30,654 nt of DNA, taken from a virus. The position numbers were made by a program, and so were the translations under genes. Location of the stretch: the IMG/VR virus record IMGVR_UViG_3300028027_000165, positions 1-30,654 of that record. One strand, written 5' to 3'. The notes beneath the pieces were generated by a model. The model had not been told where the DNA came from and made no database searches. It worked only from the letters and a program-made list of their open reading frames with translations. Of this stretch, positions 1,416 to 27,000 are shown in pieces. Every line of letters begins with the position of its first letter. Positions within the stretch are counted from its first letter, which is position 1.

Positions 1416-1611
1416 GGCACGTAGTCTTTTTGTAGCATTCGTATGTATGTGCTTAGGACTCCACATCCTGATACCATCCACTGTAGAACAAAGTACAACT
1501 AGCCAACTAATGATAAAAGCTAAAACAAGTTCTAAAGAAAAAGTATGTTATAAAAAGAAACTAAAACCTTCTGTCAAAAAACAATGTGAAAGATGGGGTA
1601 TTTATATATGA
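1405..1611 (+). CDS. Small membrane-anchored protein (68 aa)
   Basis: The frame overlaps the previous gene by 11 bases and begins MPSKARSLF. Residues about 7-26 form one hydrophobic segment (FVAFVCMCLGLHILI) preceded by Lys/Arg, so an N-in anchor or uncleaved signal peptide is likely. It is followed by a Ser/Thr linker and a Lys-rich tail with two Cys. No good Shine-Dalgarno is visible, so translational coupling to the upstream gene is probable. A TTG one codon earlier is an alternative start. The stop overlaps the next ATG (ATGA at 1608). The anchor plus basic tail could suit an envelope-acting accessory or lysis-related protein, but no family is recognised. Confidence 0.55.
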   Translation: MPSKARSLFVAFVCMCLGLHILIPSTVEQSTTSQLMIKAKTSSKEKVCYKKKLKPSVKKQCERWGIYI

Positions 1612-2117
1612 CACTTATAGATAAAGCATGTTACGAACGTGGATGCGCTTGTTATGACGACCGAGTAGATGACGATGCAGTTGAAGTAGTCTTGGCACAG
1701 ACGCAAGAGCCTGTGGTTTATCAATGTCCGAGATGTGCAACTTCTATGCAAGTTGACCTAACCGCTAAAGCAGCCTTGGCACAGACGCAAGAGCCTTGGT
1801 GCATGAAGATGAACGACTGCAAAACAAAGTGCGAAGACTGCCCCGATGAGCCACCACAGCGCACAGAGCAAGAGCCTGTGGCGTACTACTTACCACATAA
1901 GGGGTTCTATTGGGCAAAGCCCACAAGAATTTCAGCACCAACTATTGCTGATGTTGAGCCATTGCCCCTCTACACCCACCCACCACAGCGCACATGGGTA
2001 GGGCTGACAAACAATGAGCTTCAACCAATTGCCGATGAATACCGCATTCTTTTTGGTAGTTGGGTTGAAGACTTTGCTAGAGCCATTGAAGCCAAACTCA
2101 AGGAGAAGAACACATGA
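1608..2117 (+). CDS. Modular repeat protein with Cys clusters, probably acquired (169 aa)
   Basis: The protein begins MTLIDKACYERG, set by the ATGA overlap with the previous stop; an ATG at 1593 in frame is an alternative. It is built of short modules: LAQTQEPV twice, EQEPVAY once, and PPQRT twice. It ends in a FARAIEAKLKEKN-type tail. Cys pairs CPRC and CKTKCEDC suggest one or two small metal-binding knuckles. EPVAY, PLYTHPPQR and FARAIEA modules are familiar from accessory genes of phages and prophages in Betaproteobacteria and other Proteobacteria, where modules shuffle. Codons here (GCA CAG ACG, GAG CCT GTG, CAG CGC ACA) are visibly more GC-rich than in all neighbours, which supports transfer. 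The function of the family is not established. Confidence 0.75.
   Translation: MTLIDKACYERGCACYDDRVDDDAVEVVLAQTQEPVVYQCPRCATSMQVDLTAKAALAQTQEPWCMKMNDCKTKCEDCPDEPPQRTEQEPVAYYLPHKGFYWAKPTRISAPTIADVEPLPLYTHPPQRTWVGLTNNELQPIADEYRILFGSWVEDFARAIEAKLKEKNT
1691..1796 (+). repeat. 22-bp direct repeat inside the modular gene
   Basis: CTTGGCACAGACGCAAGAGC plus CT occurs exactly at 1691-1712 and 1775-1796, 84 bases apart and therefore in the same reading frame. Each copy encodes the LAQTQEP module. A shorter related unit, CAAGAGCCTGTGG, reappears near 1869, and CCACCACAGCGCACA occurs near 1852 and 1979. In-frame repeats of this kind permit module gain and loss by recombination. Confidence 0.85.
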
Positions 2118-2305
2118 CAATATACATAATAGTTTTATACATTTGCATAGAAGCTAAGTGTCAATTCTTTCAAGCAGAAGGGTATATAACAGATGAAAAA
2201 GAATGCAAAAGAGAAGTTGCAACACAAATAGAAAAAGGCAAACGTGATGGTATTAAAGTAGATGGTACATGTATTGACTTAGAAGTTCAAGGAAAAAGAG
2301 TATGA
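2114..2305 (+). CDS. Small Cys-containing protein with hydrophobic N-terminus (63 aa)
   Basis: I do not recognise this protein. An ATGA overlap couples it to the upstream gene. The first 13 residues are hydrophobic (MTIYIIVLYICIE), which could be a short export signal or anchor. The rest is soluble and charged with four Cys in all. The pattern of Cys in a short exported domain is common in small phage proteins. Codon use returns to the AT-rich type of the rest of the arm. Confidence 0.6.
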   Translation: MTIYIIVLYICIEAKCQFFQAEGYITDEKECKREVATQIEKGKRDGIKVDGTCIDLEVQGKRV

Positions 2306-2439
2306 ATGAAGTACAACAATTCTACGAAGCTATCCGTAAAAAGTGGCCTGTACCAACTAAACCTTGGGAAGAGCTTCATCCACAAGAACAAATAATGCTT
2401 ATCCAAGCTATCAACATAATCTTACAGGTATTACAATGA
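2302..2439 (+). CDS. Small phage protein (45 aa)
   Basis: This short frame begins MNEVQQFYEAIRKKWP and ends INIILQVLQ. Its ATG overlaps the preceding stop (ATGA at 2302) and its own stop overlaps the next ATG (ATGA at 2436). A GGAAAAAGAG Shine-Dalgarno-like stretch precedes it. The KKWP-P-T-PWEELHPQEQ segment and a C-terminal amphipathic helix give it a protein-like composition. Function is unknown. The two overlaps are the main evidence that it is real. Confidence 0.65.
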   Translation: MNEVQQFYEAIRKKWPVPTKPWEELHPQEQIMLIQAINIILQVLQ

Positions 2440-2987
2440 CAGATCGTATACACATAACCGCATCAGGAAAAGAAATACAAGTATGGGATGACATGATCCC
2501 AGCAAACTTACAAAGTGTATTCTTTCAATACATAGTAGCATCAAGATACTCTATTGGATGGGCTGATCAAAACTCAGAAACAGGAGCAAGATATAGATAT
2601 CTCCATTGCCAAATGACTGACGAAGAAACTTTTCATGGTGGAATATATCCATATATTCTAACAACCAAAATAAAAGATCATCTTGAAGGATATGTTTTTG
2701 AAAAGTCAGTAATCAATCTAAGCACTCCATCTGATGTAAATTTCTTTCATACTCATGACAAAAACGGCCTTATCCTACTCTACTATCCTAATCCAATTTG
2801 GCAAAATCATTGGCATGGTGAAACATTATTCTCAGATGAATCATCTAAAGAGATTGAATATGCCATATCATACAAACCTGGGAGACTAGCACTATTTAAC
2901 TCATCAATCTCACATTCTATAAGACCACAATCAATTGTTGCAGACAACTTTAGATTTACTTATGCAATGGTATTTGTAAAGGGATAA
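2436..2987 (+). CDS. 2OG-Fe(II) oxygenase, prolyl-4-hydroxylase-like (183 aa)
   Basis: The C-terminal half has the layout of phage 2-oxoglutarate/Fe(II) oxygenases: FFHTHDKNGLILLYYPNPIW, then HGETLF, then YKPGRLALF, SISHS and finally R-FTYAMVF. The HTHD cluster and the His of SISHS would bind iron; the Arg of the last strand would bind 2-oxoglutarate. The facial triad is normally written HxD...H, so here the exact first two ligands are uncertain. The start at 2436 is chosen from the ATGA overlap with the 45-aa gene. Such enzymes hydroxylate proteins, DNA bases or small molecules. The substrate cannot be told here; the neighbours are small unknown genes. Confidence 0.75.
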   Translation: MTDRIHITASGKEIQVWDDMIPANLQSVFFQYIVASRYSIGWADQNSETGARYRYLHCQMTDEETFHGGIYPYILTTKIKDHLEGYVFEKSVINLSTPSDVNFFHTHDKNGLILLYYPNPIWQNHWHGETLFSDESSKEIEYAISYKPGRLALFNSSISHSIRPQSIVADNFRFTYAMVFVKG

Positions 2988-2988
2988 A

Positions 2989-3270
2989 ATGGATATCTAT
3001 GAAGGTGAATTCAATACAGACGTACTATGGGACTTCGACTATACAGACTATGAGGATACCGAAACAACAGTTCTCTATTCTGTAGAACCCGCAGAACCTT
3101 GGGTAGGCCTCATGCATGACGGATACGATTATCAAGTCCTATTGTATCGTGATAATAAGTTATTAAAAGATATTACTGATGAATTGTCTGATAAAGATAA
3201 TGCAGCAATATATCATGCCTGTGTAACCAACTTTGAGGAGATTAAAAATAGTCAATACGAACCATTCTAA
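2989..3270 (+). CDS. Acidic hypothetical protein (93 aa)
   Basis: I do not recognise this protein. It is strongly acidic, with DFDYTDYEDTETT near residues 16-28 and a Trp-rich segment (EPWVGLMHDGYDYQVLLY) after it. This gives it a DNA-mimic-like charge pattern, though that is only a composition argument. AAAGGGA is the Shine-Dalgarno before the ATG. The end of the gene overlaps the next frame by 38 bases and ends EPF. Confidence 0.65.
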   Translation: MDIYEGEFNTDVLWDFDYTDYEDTETTVLYSVEPAEPWVGLMHDGYDYQVLLYRDNKLLKDITDELSDKDNAAIYHACVTNFEEIKNSQYEPF

Positions 3271-3460
3271 CAGCTTTGGGTCATCAAAGTATTTTGTATT
3301 TAACCAACAAGGTTATGACCGTATGTATTTCGGTGTAGCTGGTCGTGAAATCAGTCTACTAAACGCAGTTCTATTCTTAACACATAAAGAGGCACAAAAA
3401 CATGCAGACAATCTCAATTCCCGTATCACAGATCAAAAAGAAACGCACAATGAACCCTGA
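3233..3460 (+). CDS. Small phage protein with uncertain, non-ATG start
   Basis: The body FNQQGYDRMYFGVAGREISLLNAVLFLTHKEAQKHADNLNS is protein-like and of a type seen in small phage genes (an FGxxG...LF-T-EAQ-HAD-LN pattern). The only near-cognate start is TTG at 3233. A GAGGAG Shine-Dalgarno at 3235-3240 lies after that codon and is instead correctly spaced for an ATA at 3248. There is no in-frame ATG before residue 31. Either a rare start or translational coupling with the overlapping upstream gene is required. Coding status is likely, the start is unresolved, and the function is unknown. Confidence 0.6.
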   Translation: MRRLKIVNTNHSNSFGSSKYFVFNQQGYDRMYFGVAGREISLLNAVLFLTHKEAQKHADNLNSRITDQKETHNEP

Positions 3461-3710
3461 AGTACAAGCTAAAGGTGCTATTGCTCTTGAAAAATGGCGT
3501 AAAGAAAAAGCCAAAGCACATGCTAAAGGTGGTAAAACATTAGCTAACTGGATTGCTAAAGAAGAAGCTAAAAAAGCAGCTCGTACAATCTCTCCATTAA
3601 CCGCTATTCGTAACTTCTGTATTGACTGTGTAGGAGGTAGTACTCAAGAAGTATCTAACTGCTCTAACCAAAAATGTAACTTATATATTCATCGTCCTTA
3701 TCAATTATGA
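3402..3710 (+). CDS. Small zinc-knuckle protein (102 aa)
   Basis: The N-terminal half is a basic helix rich in Lys and Ala (KEKAKAHAKGGKTLANWIAKEEAKKAAR). The C-terminal half has four Cys in the pattern CIDC...NCSNQKC followed by LYIHRPYQL. A CxxC-x(9)-Cx4-C knuckle after an IRNFC segment recurs in phage proteins and probably binds zinc; with the basic helix, nucleic-acid binding is plausible. An AAAGAGG Shine-Dalgarno supports the start at 3402. MNPEVQ at 3450 is an alternative that would shorten the overlap with the preceding gene from 59 to 11 bases. No enzymatic motif is seen. Confidence 0.65.
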   Translation: MQTISIPVSQIKKKRTMNPEVQAKGAIALEKWRKEKAKAHAKGGKTLANWIAKEEAKKAARTISPLTAIRNFCIDCVGGSTQEVSNCSNQKCNLYIHRPYQL

Positions 3711-3892
3711 AACTGTATGAACTAAAACGTAATACACTATTCACTCTTGTTGGTGATGATCGTATTTACAACCTACATCACATTGATGGTATGTATTCAT
3801 ATGTCACAGACGCTATGAATAATGTATACCATTTCGCAGCATTTACTGAAGTAGAACCATATGACAACCATAGCATACAAACTGTTTCGTAA
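3707..3892 (+). CDS. Small phage protein (61 aa)
   Basis: ATGA overlap with the zinc-knuckle gene sets the start. The sequence looks like a small beta-rich domain: MKLYELKRNTLFTL, then IDGMYSYVTDAMNNVYHFAAFTEVEP. The D-G-MYSY-(linker)-V-H-AA-TEVEP layout is typical of a widespread type of small phage protein without known function. The last 32 bases overlap the next gene. Confidence 0.6.
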   Translation: MKLYELKRNTLFTLVGDDRIYNLHHIDGMYSYVTDAMNNVYHFAAFTEVEPYDNHSIQTVS

Positions 3893-4166
3893 ACGTAAAG
3901 ACGGTACATACGGACCACTCTTTATTAACCGCAAACAAAAGCTTAATGTAGGTATCCTATACTATGCTGAAAAACATCCTACTAAAGGCTATGCCTATAG
4001 ACCAGGATGGCATTGTTGTGCAGAACCTAATGCACCACACCTATCCAAAAAAGATCGTGTATGGTGTGAAGTTAAAATTGAAGAATATACAGAACACATG
4101 AGACCAGCTAACCAAGGTGGCTTGTGGTATACAGCAAACAAATTAACAATCCTACAGGAACTGTAA
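3861..4166 (+). CDS. Conserved phage protein with HCC motif (101 aa)
   Basis: It begins MTTIAYKLFRKRKDG and contains GPLFINRKQKLNVG, HPTKGYAYRPGWHCC, EPNAPHL and DRVWCEV segments. I recognise this arrangement (a basic front, then RPGWHCCAEPNAPHLS, then WCEV) as that of a common phage hypothetical protein. The WHCC pair plus further His and Cys could bind a metal. Its stop codon (TAA) overlaps the next ATG as TAATG. The cellular role is not known. Confidence 0.7.
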   Translation: MTTIAYKLFRKRKDGTYGPLFINRKQKLNVGILYYAEKHPTKGYAYRPGWHCCAEPNAPHLSKKDRVWCEVKIEEYTEHMRPANQGGLWYTANKLTILQEL

Positions 4167-16704: not shown

Positions 16705-18582
16705 ATGAACTCTTATCAACAACTTATCGCTAAATCCCGTTATGCACGTTACTTACCTGAAAAGAAACGTAGGGAGAATTGGAATGAAACCTCTGAACGT
16801 TGGATAGCTTTCTTTCAAAGAGAATTAAAAAATAAAATTAAACCAGATGACAGTATCTGGAATATTCTAGGTAATGAGATTAATAATTTGTCTACATTAC
16901 CCTCAATGCGTTCTATCATGACAGCTGGTGAGGCTCTTCGCCGCACTAATGTAGCCGCATATAATTGTTCTTATTTACCTATAGATAATCCTCGTTGTTT
17001 TGATGAGGCCATGTACATCCTATTATGTGGCACTGGAGTGGGCTTCTCAGCTGAACAACAATATACGGGTCTATTACCCCCAGTACCTTCCCTTGTAAAT
17101 GATCATAATGTTATCATTAAAGTGCAAGACAGTAAAGAAGGTTGGTGTGACGCCTATCGTATCCTTGTTAATATGTTATATCAAGGTACCATCCCTACAT
17201 GGGATGTATCCTTAGTACGTCCTGCAGGTGCTCCGCTTAAGACCTTTGGTGGTCGTGCTTCTGGTCCTGGTCCATTGATTGACTTGTTTATTTATACAGT
17301 TAATAAATTTATGATTGCCCAAGGACGTCAGCTAAAGCCTATCGAGTGCCATGATATCATGTGTAAGATTGGTGAAGTAGTTGTAGTAGGTGGTGTACGC
17401 CGTAGTGCTATGATTAGCTTAGGTGACTTAGGAGACTATGACCATGCTACCGCTAAGACAGGTACATGGTGGGAACAACATGGTGAACGTGCTCTGGCTA
17501 ATAACTCAGCTGTATACAATAGTAAGCCTTCTGTAGGCGAGTTCATGAAGGAGTGGTTAGATATCTACAACAGTCATTCAGGTGAACGAGGAATCTTTAA
17601 TCGTGAAGCATCACAAAAACAAGCAGCAAAATGGGGTCGTCGTGATAGTACCACAGACTATGGAACAAACCCTTGTTCAGAAATTATCCTCAAGCCCTAC
17701 CAATTCTGTAATCTATCTACCGTTGTTGTATCTCCCGAAGATACTTTGGAATCACTCAAACACAAAGTAAGAATTGCTACTATCATGGGTACTATGCAGT
17801 CAACTCTAACTTACTTCCCTTACCTACGTGATATCTGGCGTACTAATACTGAGTCAGAACGTTTGTTAGGTGTGTCTATGACTGGTATTTTAGATAATCA
17901 ACTATTACGTGGTCAAGGTAATATGAATCTAGAAGAAGTTTTATCTACCCTACGTGACGTAGCTCGTGATACTAACCAAGAATGGGCTGAGATCTTAGGT
18001 ATACCTGCTTCAACAGCTATTACCTGTGTTAAGCCTGAAGGTACTGTATCTCAGTTAACACAAACAAGTAGTGGTATTCATGCTGGACATGCACCATATT
18101 ATATCAGACGTATTCGTCAAGATAAAAAGGATCCTTTAACACAGTTCTTAATTGAACAAGGTGTTCCTCATGAAGACTGTGTGATGAAGCCTGATCAAAC
18201 ATCTGTGTTTAGCTTCCCACAACGTTCACCAGGATTTACCCGCAAAGACTTAACCGCTATTGATCATTTAAATATCTGGTTAATGTATCAGCGTTATTGG
18301 TGCGAACACAAACCATCTGTTACTATCTCTGTTAAGGAACATGAATGGATGGAGGTAGGTGCATGGGTATATGAACACTTTGATGAGTGTACTGGTATCA
18401 GCTTCTTACCTGATGATGGTGGTACTTATCGTCAGGCTCCATACGAAGATATTGACTTGTCAGTATATCATCGTTTAAAAGATACACAACCCACTATTGA
18501 TTGGGAAAATTTTATTGAAGATCGTGATAATGTTGAGGGTGCTCAAACATTAGCATGTGCAGCAGGAGGATGTGAGATTTGA
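16705..18582 (+). CDS. Class II (B12-dependent) ribonucleotide reductase, monomeric type (625 aa)
   Basis: The catalytic Cys and Glu layout is that of Lactobacillus RTPR: NCSYLP (C88), NPCSEI (C324 thiyl radical site, E326) and FCNLS (C335), with the same 11-residue spacing between the latter two. CVKPEGTVSQLTQTSSGIH is the conserved substrate-phosphate loop. The C-terminal redox pair C618-x4-C623 (ACAAGGCEI) matches C731/C736 of RTPR. It reduces ribonucleotides to deoxyribonucleotides using adenosylcobalamin from the host and independent of oxygen. It is about 110 residues shorter than RTPR. The Shine-Dalgarno is AAAAGGAAC. The thioredoxin gene overlaps its stop, and promoter-like copy 3 precedes it. 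Confidence 0.92.
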   Translation: MNSYQQLIAKSRYARYLPEKKRRENWNETSERWIAFFQRELKNKIKPDDSIWNILGNEINNLSTLPSMRSIMTAGEALRRTNVAAYNCSYLPIDNPRCFDEAMYILLCGTGVGFSAEQQYTGLLPPVPSLVNDHNVIIKVQDSKEGWCDAYRILVNMLYQGTIPTWDVSLVRPAGAPLKTFGGRASGPGPLIDLFIYTVNKFMIAQGRQLKPIECHDIMCKIGEVVVVGGVRRSAMISLGDLGDYDHATAKTGTWWEQHGERALANNSAVYNSKPSVGEFMKEWLDIYNSHSGERGIFNREASQKQAAKWGRRDSTTDYGTNPCSEIILKPYQFCNLSTVVVSPEDTLESLKHKVRIATIMGTMQSTLTYFPYLRDIWRTNTESERLLGVSMTGILDNQLLRGQGNMNLEEVLSTLRDVARDTNQEWAEILGIPASTAITCVKPEGTVSQLTQTSSGIHAGHAPYYIRRIRQDKKDPLTQFLIEQGVPHEDCVMKPDQTSVFSFPQRSPGFTRKDLTAIDHLNIWLMYQRYWCEHKPSVTISVKEHEWMEVGAWVYEHFDECTGISFLPDDGGTYRQAPYEDIDLSVYHRLKDTQPTIDWENFIEDRDNVEGAQTLACAAGGCEI

Positions 18583-18848
18583 ACTTATATAAATTTTATA
18601 CTGATACATGTGTACCATGCAGACAAATGAATAATCGTATTAAAGATGTAGATTTTCATTTTGATTATGGTGTAATATTAACTAATGTTAATGCTACTGA
18701 AAACACAGAGCTTAGAGACAAGTATGGGGTTAAGACTGTACCTACCTTTGTACTAGCCGATGATAAAGATAATATGATTCGTAAGATCAGTGGATCTATT
18801 TCTTTACCTGAGTTAGATACTTTTATTACAGGCACAGCCGTCCCCTAA
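18579..18848 (+). CDS. Thioredoxin/glutaredoxin-like protein, TTG start (89 aa)
   Basis: The active site is TCVPC at the N-terminus (C11, C14), followed by a KTVPTFVL cis-Pro segment: a compact thioredoxin fold. No ATG is available before the Cys pair. AGGAGG at the end of the reductase gene is spaced nine bases from TTG at 18579, whose last two bases open the reductase stop, so the two genes are tightly coupled. The likely job is to reduce the C618/C623 pair of the reductase. The last codons, GTC CCC TAA, are part of promoter-like copy 4, so stop and promoter share sequence. Confidence 0.85.
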   Translation: MNLYKFYTDTCVPCRQMNNRIKDVDFHFDYGVILTNVNATENTELRDKYGVKTVPTFVLADDKDNMIRKISGSISLPELDTFITGTAVP

Positions 18849-18858: not shown

Positions 18859-18933
18859 TGCGGAATAGCTCAGTAGGAGAGCGCTGGACTCATAATCCAG
18901 AGGTCAGTGGTGCGAATCCACTTTCCGCAACCA
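18859..18933 (+). tRNA. tRNA with anticodon CAU (Met, or Ile2 if lysidine-modified)
   Basis: The acceptor is TGCGGAA (18859-18865) paired with TTCCGCA (18923-18929), discriminator A, encoded CCA (18931-18933). The anticodon stem CTGGA/TCCAG encloses CTCATAA, giving CAT at 18891-18893. The D-arm is AGCTC...GAGC. The T-loop is TGCGAAT, with G where T is nearly invariant (position 55). U1-A72 is paired and the anticodon stem lacks the three G-C pairs of initiators, so it is not an initiator. Elongator Met versus Ile2 (reading AUA, frequent here) cannot be settled by eye. Confidence 0.9.
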
Positions 18934-18941
18934 CCATACAA

Positions 18942-19016
18942 GGGTCATTAGTTCAATGGATAGAACAGTGATCTTCTAAGTCACGAGTGCATGTTCGATT
19001 CATGCATGACCCACCA
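18942..19016 (+). tRNA. tRNA-Arg (UCU)
   Basis: The acceptor GGGTCAT (18942-18948) pairs with ATGACCC (19006-19012), discriminator A, encoded CCA (19014-19016). The anticodon stem GTGAT/GTCAC encloses CTTCTAA, giving TCT at 18975-18977. The T-arm GCATG TTCGATT CATGC is regular. It decodes AGA and probably AGG, which are used in this phage's Arg-rich small genes. It is eight bases from the first tRNA, so the two are likely cotranscribed. Confidence 0.93.
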
Positions 19017-23400: not shown

Positions 23401-24068
23401 ATTTGAATACCCACAGGAACACCTTCATACCCTGCTTTTGTGCTTCCTATAGTGGCATCTAATGGATTAAACAAATCATGTTCTGTGCTATTAGAAATAG
23501 TAGCTAAAACAGGAGCCATTTTATCAGCCATTCTATTGATTGTTACTTCATCAAAATCGCCTTTATTATTAGTAGTTATAATGGCTTTAGCCATAGCTAC
23601 AGGATTGTCTTCCATTAAAGCAGCATCAAAATTAGGGACAGTTTCTAATTGCGCTGCTTGTTCTTCTCCAAACCTTTCCATAGGTATTTCTTGTAGCTGA
23701 TGCTCACCTGTTGTGGGGTCCACAATTGCTCTACCTAATTCATCAAATGCAGGCTCCATCCTTGTTAGGTTAGCATGAGGAGATTGAGTAACCTCTGCAA
23801 GGGCTTCTGGAGATGATAACCCTGTAATCCTATTAGACTCTATTACCCCTTTCATTCCAGGAGCTGGCATAGGAGGAGGGGATAAAGGCACTGGGTTGTA
23901 TGTGTTAACACCTTCTTGAGCAGCAACAGAGCCAGGGATTACTGGAGTAGACCCCTGACCATATCTGTCTACAGCTTGGTTCATTAGGTCTTGAACCGAT
24001 AATTTACCACCAATAGGCGCAGCAATATTAGCATTGCTTGTTGATGGCGTTGAAACTTTTCCGACCAT
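20463..24068 (-). CDS. Putative virion RNA polymerase (single-subunit RNAP core), 1201 aa
   Basis: The C-terminal two-thirds carries the single-subunit RNA polymerase motifs in order. SSANQRFFRNSDG (residues 524-536) resembles the DxxGR region. DGNQNGIFIQAL (motif A, D716) is followed by a segment like that after T7 D537. LFKVPMMQNSYGK (motif B, K795-x7-Y803-G804) has T7 spacing; the usual Arg four before the Lys is S791. QSTDGDLIKLM then IHDALITTAD (motif C, H1016, D1017) matches T7 HSQDGSHLR...IHDSF. Residues 1-500 are unrecognised, with a Pro-rich patch near 58-70. AGAAGG precedes the ATG; the start overlaps the upstream stop (TAATG). Its late-arm position beside internal virion proteins suggests packaging and injection, as in N4 (about 3500 aa there). 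The polymerase core is strongly supported; virion location is inference. Confidence 0.8.
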   Translation of the reverse strand: MVGKVSTPSTSNANIAAPIGGKLSVQDLMNQAVDRYGQGSTPVIPGSVAAQEGVNTYNPVPLSPPPMPAPGMKGVIESNRITGLSSPEALAEVTQSPHANLTRMEPAFDELGRAIVDPTTGEHQLQEIPMERFGEEQAAQLETVPNFDAALMEDNPVAMAKAIITTNNKGDFDEVTINRMADKMAPVLATISNSTEHDLFNPLDATIGSTKAGYEGVPVGIQIQHEFDIPQEQVKPLATIIGIAHILATSETNQFKDSPNTGYTKEDSGLIVDKNGDVIEDAVPEVNLINSMIHSAQNALDRVGINIPPDAVRQLVEAKVQAEKYNGNHRLMQDKNGRWVLGSTPRIKDYARELSMLSEALAGDTRRSPPSKVPQLSGSNFLRPGSQTSKNTMKIPGTTSTVAEAVKDIFGSIAEKFLKKNVKSTYFQLTDIKNKMVNDETGYYSTSVFAKRHKMDEASYKNLLNNVSPPKDYNDSDPEQRAKFNQTKIDHAVQQMNTKEKALERDIKNASGLRGLLYSAYIHSSANQRFFRNSDGTDIMGSKSGIREMLNFGVQGHVTSTSFFNPTKVQELKDKAVSIFAKQGEDRHKALIALTPFERATLGLMEMAVVNYYSFSADPANIKKNIKKYSEIDLIKMYTPEIAGYLAALGKEYNDWLDGKIDNDSSFVLDKLSKMPRGEAQGFQNLWDDMFQIETAAKSPELSRSPVRLTALNYDDGNQNGIFIQALYAGNTPVATRLGSYNPSLEDMRGHALNIIGDQLDELIPDQPEKKQAWTKFFMEAYSKLPDKLASDLFKVPMMQNSYGKDAGMFFDHIREFLQDTQEYSDIYGTVLSQAYGNDFNAAATDLSNAMEATLRKTINPKFVESLKRVGRMFAVMDTVPTIEGTAKDHWSFSSVDCGFIPDYNKNIISQAITAEGQEYVEKIIGQTTTQYQTPNGIVEAPMAKRGLNPNSSKGIQRFFNKKTKTFDLFENAIGSALSRQMGVMPVQSTDGDLIKLMMLAVNSRLKMPMPVATIHDALITTADSMHIYRNAYNNIAIPQAVKEIAKFGVKLDKAYNEAKRNLFDKLSGEKYIGIGDNGDYPTLGGVFDEIAKKIESSAYKEVFLRRSHNSEDSWNDYVAKQKIILKKATDAGWIQGKPNLAVDAKSFRDLFNIAEEAFGMGGANNKFKLWVDNFAHEVEEGFKEFKRNLGNAGIAQMNHA

Positions 24069-27000
24069 TATTTACCTTCTTTCTTAAATGCGTTAGCAAT
24101 AGCTTGTTGTGTCCAAGGAAAGCTTCCTAATACAGGAGCTGCTTTGGCAAGCTTCTTTGCACCTTTATCTGTTTTACCTTCTTCAATATCGTATAGACCT
24201 TCACCAACATTTGCAGCCCAAGATGCTTGTGGTGATGCATTTTTAATTTGGCTATAAGCCCAGTCAACTGGTTTACCTTCTATGACTTTACCTTTAGGTG
24301 TTGTTGTATCAAACAAGTTAGGTGACTTATGGAAATCATACAAAGGATCAACTCTTTCCCATAGTTTTTCACCTTGACCTAACAAACCTGAGCTATATAT
24401 TAGTCTTTGTGTTTTCTTAGCAGTTGATTTTACATAAGGACTATCATCATCTCCATAAGATAAACCATTTTTAAGCATATTAACCATATGACCTGCAATA
24501 AGCGACATTGCAATAGTAGTAAATGCACTATAGCGCATAGCCATATTACCCTCTAATAAATATTGTTTGTATAATCTAGGTAACACAACTGCTTGAGCTG
24601 TAGCCATGAATCTTCCCATAGCTGTAATTATTCTAAATCTAGGATCATTAAATATTTTAGGAGTGTTAAACGCCTGAGGATTAACAATTCTTTGATCAAC
24701 CATATTTGATAATGCAGTAGCCACGTTATCTTGGAGATGCTGTGCTTCAGGAGTAGTAGCATTAAAGCTCATAAAGTCTTGACTAAAAGGGTTTAAGTCT
24801 GGCATCTTATCCATTTGAGATAAGAAACCATGTACATCTAAACCATAAGATTGTAATTCTGTTAATGCCTGAGCTTGTTCTTTTGTAAGACCCATACCTG
24901 TTGAAAACATTGCTATTCTATTTGTTTCAGGAACAGAGGCTAACGATTGTAGTTGTGTAAGCATAATATCAGAACCCACAGAAAGAACAGCAATACGATT
25001 TGCATCTGTTTGCGCTCTTAAAGTAATAGCTCTTGCAAATATACCCATTATTTTTCTTTGAATACCTGCTGCAGTGTTTGCATAATCATACCGTAAAGCT
25101 GCACCAGCACCAGTCTCATTATAGCCTAATCTATTAATCATTTTTTGGCCAAAATTTTCTTTAACTAATTTATCAACTTCGTCTTGGATAGCCTTATATT
25201 CTTCTAAAGTTAAATTAGGGTCTTGTTGTTTATTAATAAGGGTATCAATTTTATTTTGTAAAGATACACTAGGTACTGATCTTAACATATTGATACCTAT
25301 CCTAGAGGCAGCATAAGATACCCCTTTATTTATATCAGAAGCTGTTTCTTTAAAATAGGATTTAAAAAAGGTACTTAATTGTTTTCCTATTAAATGACCA
25401 GGAGTTCCAAGAGTTGCTATAGAAGTTTCTGCCATTGAAGACACTGCTGCTTTACCTAAATAAGCTAACATAGACATTGTGGTACTCCATCCTAATGTCT
25501 TATTAATTAAAGATTCTTCTGCTAATGGGTGAAAATTATTATTCATAATATCATAAAAAGCTTTAACCTGTGTTGCAGTGTTCTTATAATCAGCATCATC
25601 TTTAAATTCACCAGCAGCTTTTGCTTTTCTTAGTAACTCAGCTAACACTTGTCCATTCTTACCAAAATAAGTATTAGCCATAATGCTATTAGCCATTTGA
25701 TCTTTATGGTGTTCAATATTATCAAAGATACCTTGTTTAAATAAATGACTTAAATTAGGATTAGTGAATACATTAAATTGATTTAAATAATCTCTAGCTA
25801 AGCTAGCTTCTTGTTTATTTTTTGAAGTTAAATTATTAATAGCAGTTCTTGCAGAGTTTTGATCTGCATTAGCATTAACCATTTCAGTAAGAATATTTAA
25901 CTTATTAGCAGCCCATAAAGCAGGATCAACCTCAGCTGCCTGAAACAAGGCATTAGTGTCAGATAAATGTAAAGTATTTACTCCAGCTACTTGTCCTAAG
26001 CTAATCATAGATTGTTGTACGTTATCTAATCTATCTTTCCATGCTTGTAACGTATCACTAAAAGCATCTCCACCTAATGTACCTCCTTGACTCCATACTT
26101 GATCATAATTAACCTGAACATATTTTTGTGCTTCTTCTTTGCTAACTCCTAATTGTGCAGCTAAATCATCACCACTAATTTCTTCAGACCATTTACCTAG
26201 TAATCTTTGTCTAAAACCAGAGGCATGCTCTCCAGGAAGTATACCAAACCCACCCATAATAGATTTTATTTTTGCTAAGTTAGTTTTAAAACTACCATCT
26301 TCATTAACAATAGAAGGAATAGCTGTATGAGCAAGTTGTCTAAGGTTAGACAAGGGATTAGTAATCATAGGTAATACTGTTTCTCTAAAGAAACCTGTAT
26401 GGGTAGGTATTGTATCTAATCCACCAGCATTATTATTTTGAGCATTTTTGCTTTCAGTTCTAGACATTTCTTGAACAGTTCTATACCCGCCAGTTTGATT
26501 TAAAAGGTTTTCATGGTTTTGAGCATTAAACCTTTGAGCATCTCCTAACATTTTTTCATTTAATGCTTGTAAATCAGCAGCCCCATGCCATCCAGCCATG
26601 TCAATACTATGATGTACACCGCCAAAAGCACCTCCAACTAAAAAGCCCCCACCTGCTGCTTCTTTAAGTTGGTTATAATAGTCAGGAGTATAATGGTAAT
26701 TAAGATTACGTTGACCAGATTGGCCTAGCATTTCTAATTCTTGTTGTGCAGTTTCTGTAATTGATTCAGCTCCTGCTCTAATAACTAAATCACCAGATCT
26801 TTTAGCCATAGCTTCTGCTGATTTAATTTGCTTCATAGCAAATTCATTAGAAAAACCTGTTAGCTTAAGTATCTCACTTTTTGTTTCAGTATGAAGAAGA
26901 TTTCTTGCTTCTGCTTCGGTTAGCCTACCATTACTTTTAGCTACTATAGCAGATACAGCCTCTTTTTCTCCCACCTTAGTAAATAAATTTGCACCTAATA

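Follow-up and report, generated by a model that had tools for sequence, protein, structure and literature searches.

The window, by which we mean the whole analysed stretch of 30,654 bases, belongs to a virus record that encodes an RNA polymerase of the single-subunit type; among the matches listed, the best named relative of this enzyme is that of Roseobacter phage CRP-7 (33%). On its plus strand, a gene encoding 169 amino acids (positions 1608 to 2117) lies between two ATGA stop/start overlaps. The ORF is open, and an alternative ATG start is located upstream at 1593. At the left junction (1608 to 1613) the gene overlaps by ATGA with the upstream gene (1402 to 1611), and the sequence ATGACA found there occurs again at 2114, where the downstream gene (2114 to 2305) begins; all features described here are read from the plus strand. 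The gene is modular. It starts with the N-slot module MTLIDKACYERGCACYDDRVDDDAVEVV (1608 to 1691; 93% DNA identity to locus L039 over 113 nt), which is followed by a LAQTQEP linker (peptide at 1692 to 1712), a Cys-pair module VVYQCPRCATSMQVDLTAKAA (1713 to 1775; 83% DNA identity to locus L043 over 64 nt), a second LAQTQEP linker (peptide at 1776 to 1796) and a Cys-rich module WCMKMNDCKTKCEDCPDE (1797 to 1850), the latter as read from the sequence. A joint PPQRT-EQ-EPVAY (1851 to 1886) leads to the middle module YLPHKGFYWAKPTRISAPTIADVEPLPLYTH (1887 to 1979), which is common to many phages at about 70-82% DNA identity. The DNA-conserved linker PPQRTWVGLT (1980 to 2009; core CCACAGCGCACATGGGT) then connects to the C-slot module NNELQPIADEYRILFGSWVEDFARAIE (2010 to 2090), present in about 20 further loci with different 5' parts, and the tail linker AKLKEKNT (2091 to 2117, including the stop codon) also encodes AAGGAG and, as ATGA, the start of the gene that follows.

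GC content is highest within this cassette gene (48.4% versus 35.4% for the rest of the window), a value reached by only one of 3,015 windows of 510 nt. The two LAQTQEP linkers are part of an exact in-frame repeat of 22 bp (1691 to 1712 and 1775 to 1796), whereas shuffling the codons of the gene 1000 times never produced an exact repeat longer than 13 nt. Cys-rich stretches in the protein read CYERGCACY, CPRC and C-K-M-N-D-C...C..C. The original prediction of an open, GC-rich gene with Cys clusters and an exact 22-bp repeat at this place is thus borne out, and so are the repeated LAQTQEP and PPQRT modules (two copies each, the latter at 1851 to 1865 and 1980 to 1994); its EPVAY repeat is so only as a loose repeat, the exact string occurring once (1872 to 1886) beside the variants EPVVY and EPWC. 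What such repeated strings represent lay beyond the view of that prediction, since they are joints conserved as DNA across a very large family. The gene follows the grammar of this family, in which slots are joined by QEPVA, PPQRTWVGLT and KLKEKNT linkers, and its PPQRTWVGLT linker, CCACAGCGCACATGGGTAGGGCTGACA, is the third commonest DNA form (10 of 129 contexts).

A scan with the upstream gene yielded 11 loci, of which one (L053) is a second cut of the L002 contig, and the other ten were compared with the window. L002 is 99.93% identical over 7.1 kb and carries the identical cassette gene. In L054 and L063 the site is empty, and the upstream gene runs straight into the downstream gene with a single ATGACA, whereas the window cassette sits between two copies of this sequence; the segment missing from L054 corresponds to 1608-2113, a placement that is defined only to within the ATGACA repeat. 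L055 carries a different cassette with the same tail at the window's site, and in L058 another cassette lies between the upstream flank and a segment that matches the window from 2303. Family genes are found further downstream in L059, L061 and L062, and no family gene was detected in L056, L057 and L060 within the stretch compared. Cassette gain or loss is therefore polymorphic at this place, and close relatives display occupied, empty and alternative states. Together with the assortment of modules described below, this strongly supports the proposed shuffling cassette. A recent acquisition, as had been proposed, is plausible, but its direction does not follow, since loss via the ATGACA repeats would give the same pattern. 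The L063 contig also holds two copies of the window segment 2303-2439 (at 36-121 and 638-774), the first of them partial.

A protein search led to 51 viral loci with patchy matches. The C-terminal module recurs in many loci at roughly 80-98% DNA identity, the module YLPHKGFYWAKP recurs in loci other than those sharing the N-terminal or the first Cys module, and the closest DNA matches to the individual segments of the gene come from different phages. Two scans with degenerate linker patterns gave at least 120 stretches each. A profile built from 18 members detected (E ≤ 1e-5) 515 ORFs in 338 of 356 loci, corresponding to 424 distinct proteins; the loci had mostly been chosen for matching, and these counts are hence no estimate of frequency. 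Few records in reference collections belong to the family (the window protein finds 3 phage records and L055 finds 4), and the plasmid collection contained no family match at the DNA level. We found no description of the family in the openly licensed literature, and it is a real and strong case of in-gene combinatorial shuffling, apparently one so far undescribed.

Regarding hosts, one peptide pattern found 6 loci in bacterial genome contigs, 5 in beta-proteobacterial/Comamonadaceae MAGs and 1 in an Armatimonadetes MAG, all of which are probably phage contigs in bins. Matches occur in 3 of 399 genomes of the order to which the beta-proteobacterial MAGs belong. Family members also turned up in 2 of 19 genomes from the class of the Armatimonadetes MAG (G006 and G415); either some hosts lie outside Proteobacteria or phage contigs were binned wrongly. 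Of 369 genomes compared at class level, one contains the exact linker pattern, and it had been found before. The tail module also occurs in two named freshwater phage genomes, DSL-LC04 and DSL-LC05, with the host label Gammaproteobacteria; the lake phage report, in the excerpts considered, predicts them to be virulent and their hosts to be Pseudomonas and Enterobacterales (PMC10611076). The suggestion that the modules point to a Burkholderiales host is therefore weakly supported: five of the six bacterial loci agree with it, but the low count within the order and the Gammaproteobacteria label do not. The named sources and MAGs suggest that the family is a freshwater one, a statement to which the IMG/VR contig names, which give no habitat, do not contribute. 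In DSL-LC04 (about 1700-4149) small ORFs surround the tail module, most overlapping by exactly 4 nt, and apparently form a chain of coupled genes.

Clearly, the linkers are conserved as DNA and not only as peptides. The search pattern had fixed the amino acids and left silent sites free, and still in 129 distinct in-frame contexts of PQRTWVGLT the codons were CCA in 128, CAG in 111, CGC in 127, ACA in 129, GTA in 88, GGG in 112, CTG in 113 and ACG in 92 cases, while the local background for CCA, CGC, ACA, GGG and CTG amounts to 0.35, 0.27, 0.31, 0.13 and 0.21, respectively. Hardly any variation is seen at the fourfold sites +2, +8 and +11, although +17 and +26 vary. Information content drops toward zero within roughly 15-20 nt to the left of the linker and over 30-40 nt to its right. 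Joints of the types EPVA, LYTxPPQR and EAKLKEKN are likewise codon-fixed. Of 148 copies of the 17-nt core, 146 fall within ORFs detected as family members, and the remaining two also read PQRTWVGL in frame. In-frame control motifs from the same loci (LRDYFAAKA, EREACAKVC and IREFDRWTH) showed raised synonymous identity too (about 0.33-0.62); these are the real controls retained from a 9-mer set whose mean of 0.694 is unusable, as inspection by eye revealed contamination by antisense or out-of-frame linker readings (IRQPYPCAL, SCVLLLEFG). The recurrent phage peptides GMTLRDYFAAKAM and EREACAKVC are present in many of the same loci and show more silent variation than the linkers. Pairing of the EPVA and PPQR linkers as inverted repeats (CTGTGG/CCACAG) was considered and set aside, since the EPVA proline codon is CCG in 34% of contexts and would there disrupt such pairing.

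The usual tail joint, ACTCAAGGAGAAGAACACATGA, holds a Shine-Dalgarno sequence and the start of the next gene within the last codons, and thereby couples neighbouring genes. An ATGA ending is found in 278 of 418 family ORFs versus 290 of 1193 long ORFs, and an overlap of exactly 4 nt in 56 of 141 tandem neighbours. The GC content of cassettes depends only weakly on that of their locus (slope 0.37, 190 ORFs).

The modules assort almost freely across the linkers. Using 128 linker contexts, with identical 150-nt contexts collapsed, all 53 pairs that share the right module (at least 80% identity) had a left identity below 50%, and all 24 pairs that share the left module had a right identity below 50%. 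When entire genes were compared, 5' ends were unrelated in 83 of the 94 family pairs with common 3' DNA, compared to 54 of 636 control pairs from other genes of the same loci, where some of the exceptions are possibly unrecognised relatives. Linker alleles at +17, +20 and +26 were at shuffle expectation in right-shared pairs, and association with the shared right module, whose third positions are 83% identical, appeared only from about +29 to +35. This gradient is in keeping with crossovers distributed along the linker rather than with a single fixed cut, although numbers are small and pairs are not independent. Among right-shared pairs from different loci, 39 of 52 lacked other blastn similarity in the stretches compared, as did 14 of the 24 left-shared pairs. 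For 123 loci, 94% of locus pairs are without a match of at least 300 nt, yet 101 of the 123 fall into one single-linkage chain; some DNA is thus common to many of the sampled loci, which limits the independence of the contexts. A segmentation into slots by regular expressions made misassignments (the C-module QPIA was counted as a middle unit), and the resulting repertoire and Chao1 figures are rough and not used as evidence here. On one contig (L218), two genes (2300-2935 and 3410-3754) have the same C module and unrelated 5' parts, as would be expected under exchange inside one genome.

Shared right modules show a third-position identity of 0.83 versus 0.96 at positions one and two, and a dN/dS of about 0.10 was obtained for 42 of the 53 right-shared pairs (those with stops or undefined values were dropped). 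The modules are therefore under purifying selection and are functional pieces of protein. The window protein had no meaningful match in Pfam or PHROGs (best E 0.014 and 0.021, respectively), and family members had none in NCBIfam. Searches of 100 members gave weak matches to phrog_60 (7 members, covering profile positions about 117-194) and phrog_660 (4 members), with a best E of 8.9e-07, both of function unknown in PHROGs and neither reached by the window protein; matches to PADLOC models were scattered and weak, each in one of 100 members (best E 9.9e-05, PD-Lambda-5_A). Structural models are of limited confidence (pLDDT 79.6 and pTM 0.44 for the member from L290, 70.9 and 0.40 for the window protein). 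In the L290 model a hairpin of helices is followed by a beta unit of two strands and, at the C-terminus, by a pair of helices, and most joints fall into loops. With Foldseek, the L290 model had no match in the PDB at E ≤ 0.001, and its best BFVD matches were uncharacterised phage proteins. Ten large genes near cassettes were scanned out of 20 neighbours picked by script, and nine were replication genes and one a terminase. The genes are small, located in the early region, highly variable, tandem and coupled, and on these grounds, by analogy with the argument made for Ea22 in the text available of PMC10834534, the cassette products may tentatively be regarded as host-interaction adaptors under diversifying pressure, a function that we consider possible but short of probable.

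Several known systems resemble the family in part. According to the portions considered of Smug et al. (2023; PMC10684548), phage proteins recombine fragments that are unrelated to each other, and more mosaicism is expected in proteins of unknown function. Judged on DNA and not with that study's own thresholds, the family has the same feature, a shared fragment with an unrelated remainder; but the cases in those portions are folded domains of tail, lysis and replication proteins, whereas our units are of about 15-40 amino acids, are joined by codon-fixed in-frame linkers and show almost no linkage. The lambdoid early proteins of the Ea22/DUF551 type, as depicted in the available parts of PMC10834534 and PMC7093339, are also short and encoded in the early region, with swappable C-terminal parts, but the window family differs by having no long coiled coil, different C modules and no tie to lysogeny. 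Lambda Ea22 itself belongs to phrog_250 as its best family (E 3.9e-63); neither Ead_Ea22 nor phrog_250 was matched by any of 100 members at E ≤ 1e-3 or by the window protein, and DUF551 (PF04448) was matched by 2 of 100 members and not by the window protein. Lambdoid phages also possess conserved boundary or linker sequences between genes, short conserved stretches of DNA at mosaic joints. Their joints lie between genes, whereas those of the window family are mainly inside one gene and also at its ends. Relaxed homologous recombination by Redbeta or Rad52-like proteins likewise exchanges DNA between diverged phages at short identity, but spans longer homology in the cases given in the part of PMC3945230 considered; a reusable joint within a gene is the feature of the window family. 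Shufflons and invertible cassettes carry inverted recombination sites around their segments, which the window lacks at 1400-2400, and diversity-generating retroelements employ a reverse transcriptase with template and variable repeats; variation in the window family consists of whole-module replacement.

We think it likely that recombination within in-frame linkers shuffles the modules of a combinatorial gene family in the early/replication region of freshwater tailed phages. Under this model three kinds of unit would be joined in frame to make a gene. The N-terminal unit would usually be a helical hairpin and the C-terminal one helical as well; between them would lie any number of middle units from none to several, each either a beta-hairpin from EPVA to PLYTxPP or made of Cys-rich knuckles. 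Homologous or annealing recombination of the phage type would swap units within linkers and keep the frame, during co-infection or between tandem copies within one genome, and linkers drifting from the shared sequence would drop out of exchange. As the 3' linker supplies both Shine-Dalgarno sequence and start codon for the gene that follows, whole genes could move between ATGA joints. Among 7,984 pairs with no relatedness on either side, the stretch of exact identity at the linker had a median of 20 nt, and reached at least 23 nt in 38% and at least 31 nt in 14%; according to PMC3945230, pairing needs a minimum of 23-27 bp with Redbeta and 31-34 bp with RecA. The window itself encodes a gp2.5-like ssDNA-binding/annealing protein (215 to 724; phrog_112, E 1.9e-10), a candidate recombination helper. 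Because identity runs are near the Redbeta minimum and such a protein is present, homologous annealing is the most economical engine. While the pattern of recombination is itself shown by the data, we infer that annealing recombinases drive the exchange and that linkers are kept for being recombination joints. The tightness of +2, +8 and +11 exceeds what homology alone would predict, and these sites could reflect a recognised site or another role of the DNA or RNA.

Other explanations were weighed against linker recombination. The near invariance of +2, +8 and +11 next to variable +17 and +26, together with the confinement of nearly all core copies to family ORFs, would suit a dedicated site-specific recombination system that recognises the core of roughly 17 nt, CCACARCGCACATGGGT, for programmed shuffling of modules. 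Such a system is improbable in our judgement, as linker alleles are unlinked to modules at several positions without a single switch point, no inverted repeat pairs exist at 1400-2400 and no adjoining recombinase was recognised by eye in the ORF list. A related proposal, that a recombinase recognising or favouring the joints assembles hundreds of mini-modules shared among freshwater phages into new small effectors against host factors or defences, also appears unlikely; if true, phages would have in such recombinase-run module assembly an equivalent of shufflons or of V(D)J-like assembly. Alternatively, the linkers might be kept for their peptide or for RNA and translation, the mosaic arising by illegitimate recombination with selection for frame. 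The tail linker does double as Shine-Dalgarno sequence and start for the next gene, and the modules are under purifying selection; peptide constraint, however, leaves fourfold sites free and so does not account for codons as fixed as ACA (129 of 129), breakpoints coincide with the linker and Rfam gave no match at 1400-2400, making this reading a rather unlikely one.

The usual assembly k-mers exceed the linkers, of about 20-35 nt, in length, which counts against the view that chimeric metagenome assembly at short repeats created the apparent combinations. Most members do come from metagenome contigs and linkers are repeats, but the window cassette recurs in the second record mentioned above with its near-identical flanks, the same protein match coordinates and percent identity are found in contigs of different IMG datasets (L008-L010, L026-L027 and L035-L037) and members are present in records labelled circular, and we hold such an artefact to be very improbable. 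Least of all do we believe in a recently acquired but otherwise ordinary accessory ORF with internal repeats due to slippage or duplication; the GC contrast and the 22-bp repeat had suggested it, but it is contradicted by the family-wide data, in which each repeat is a joint that separates unrelated modules.

Mosaicism of phage proteins is already known; what is new is that in-frame joints are frozen, that the slots follow a grammar and that linkage is lost almost completely. In this family the joints of protein shuffling are readable in DNA, with silent sites frozen and both sides variable, and it allows a direct test of whether short homology is kept for promoting recombination. Uncultured phages carry this family in abundance, as the at least 120 stretches from each linker scan show, and it is essentially unannotated; naming it and its parts would structure a sizeable piece of viral dark matter.

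Elsewhere in the window, the ORF at 2436-2987 has a weak match to 2OG-Fe(II) oxygenase in Pfam (E 1.4e-4, below the cut-off) and a stronger one to the PHROG annotated as DNA endonuclease V (E 2.3e-12), which disagrees with the Pfam label. By eye, a large ribonucleotide reductase-like ORF followed by a small thioredoxin-like ORF was recognised at 16705-18848, and adjacent tRNA genes for Met(CAT) and Arg(TCT) are located at 18859-19016. A second GC-rich stretch (0.43) at 23501-24250 marks the meeting point of two very long ORFs on the minus strand.
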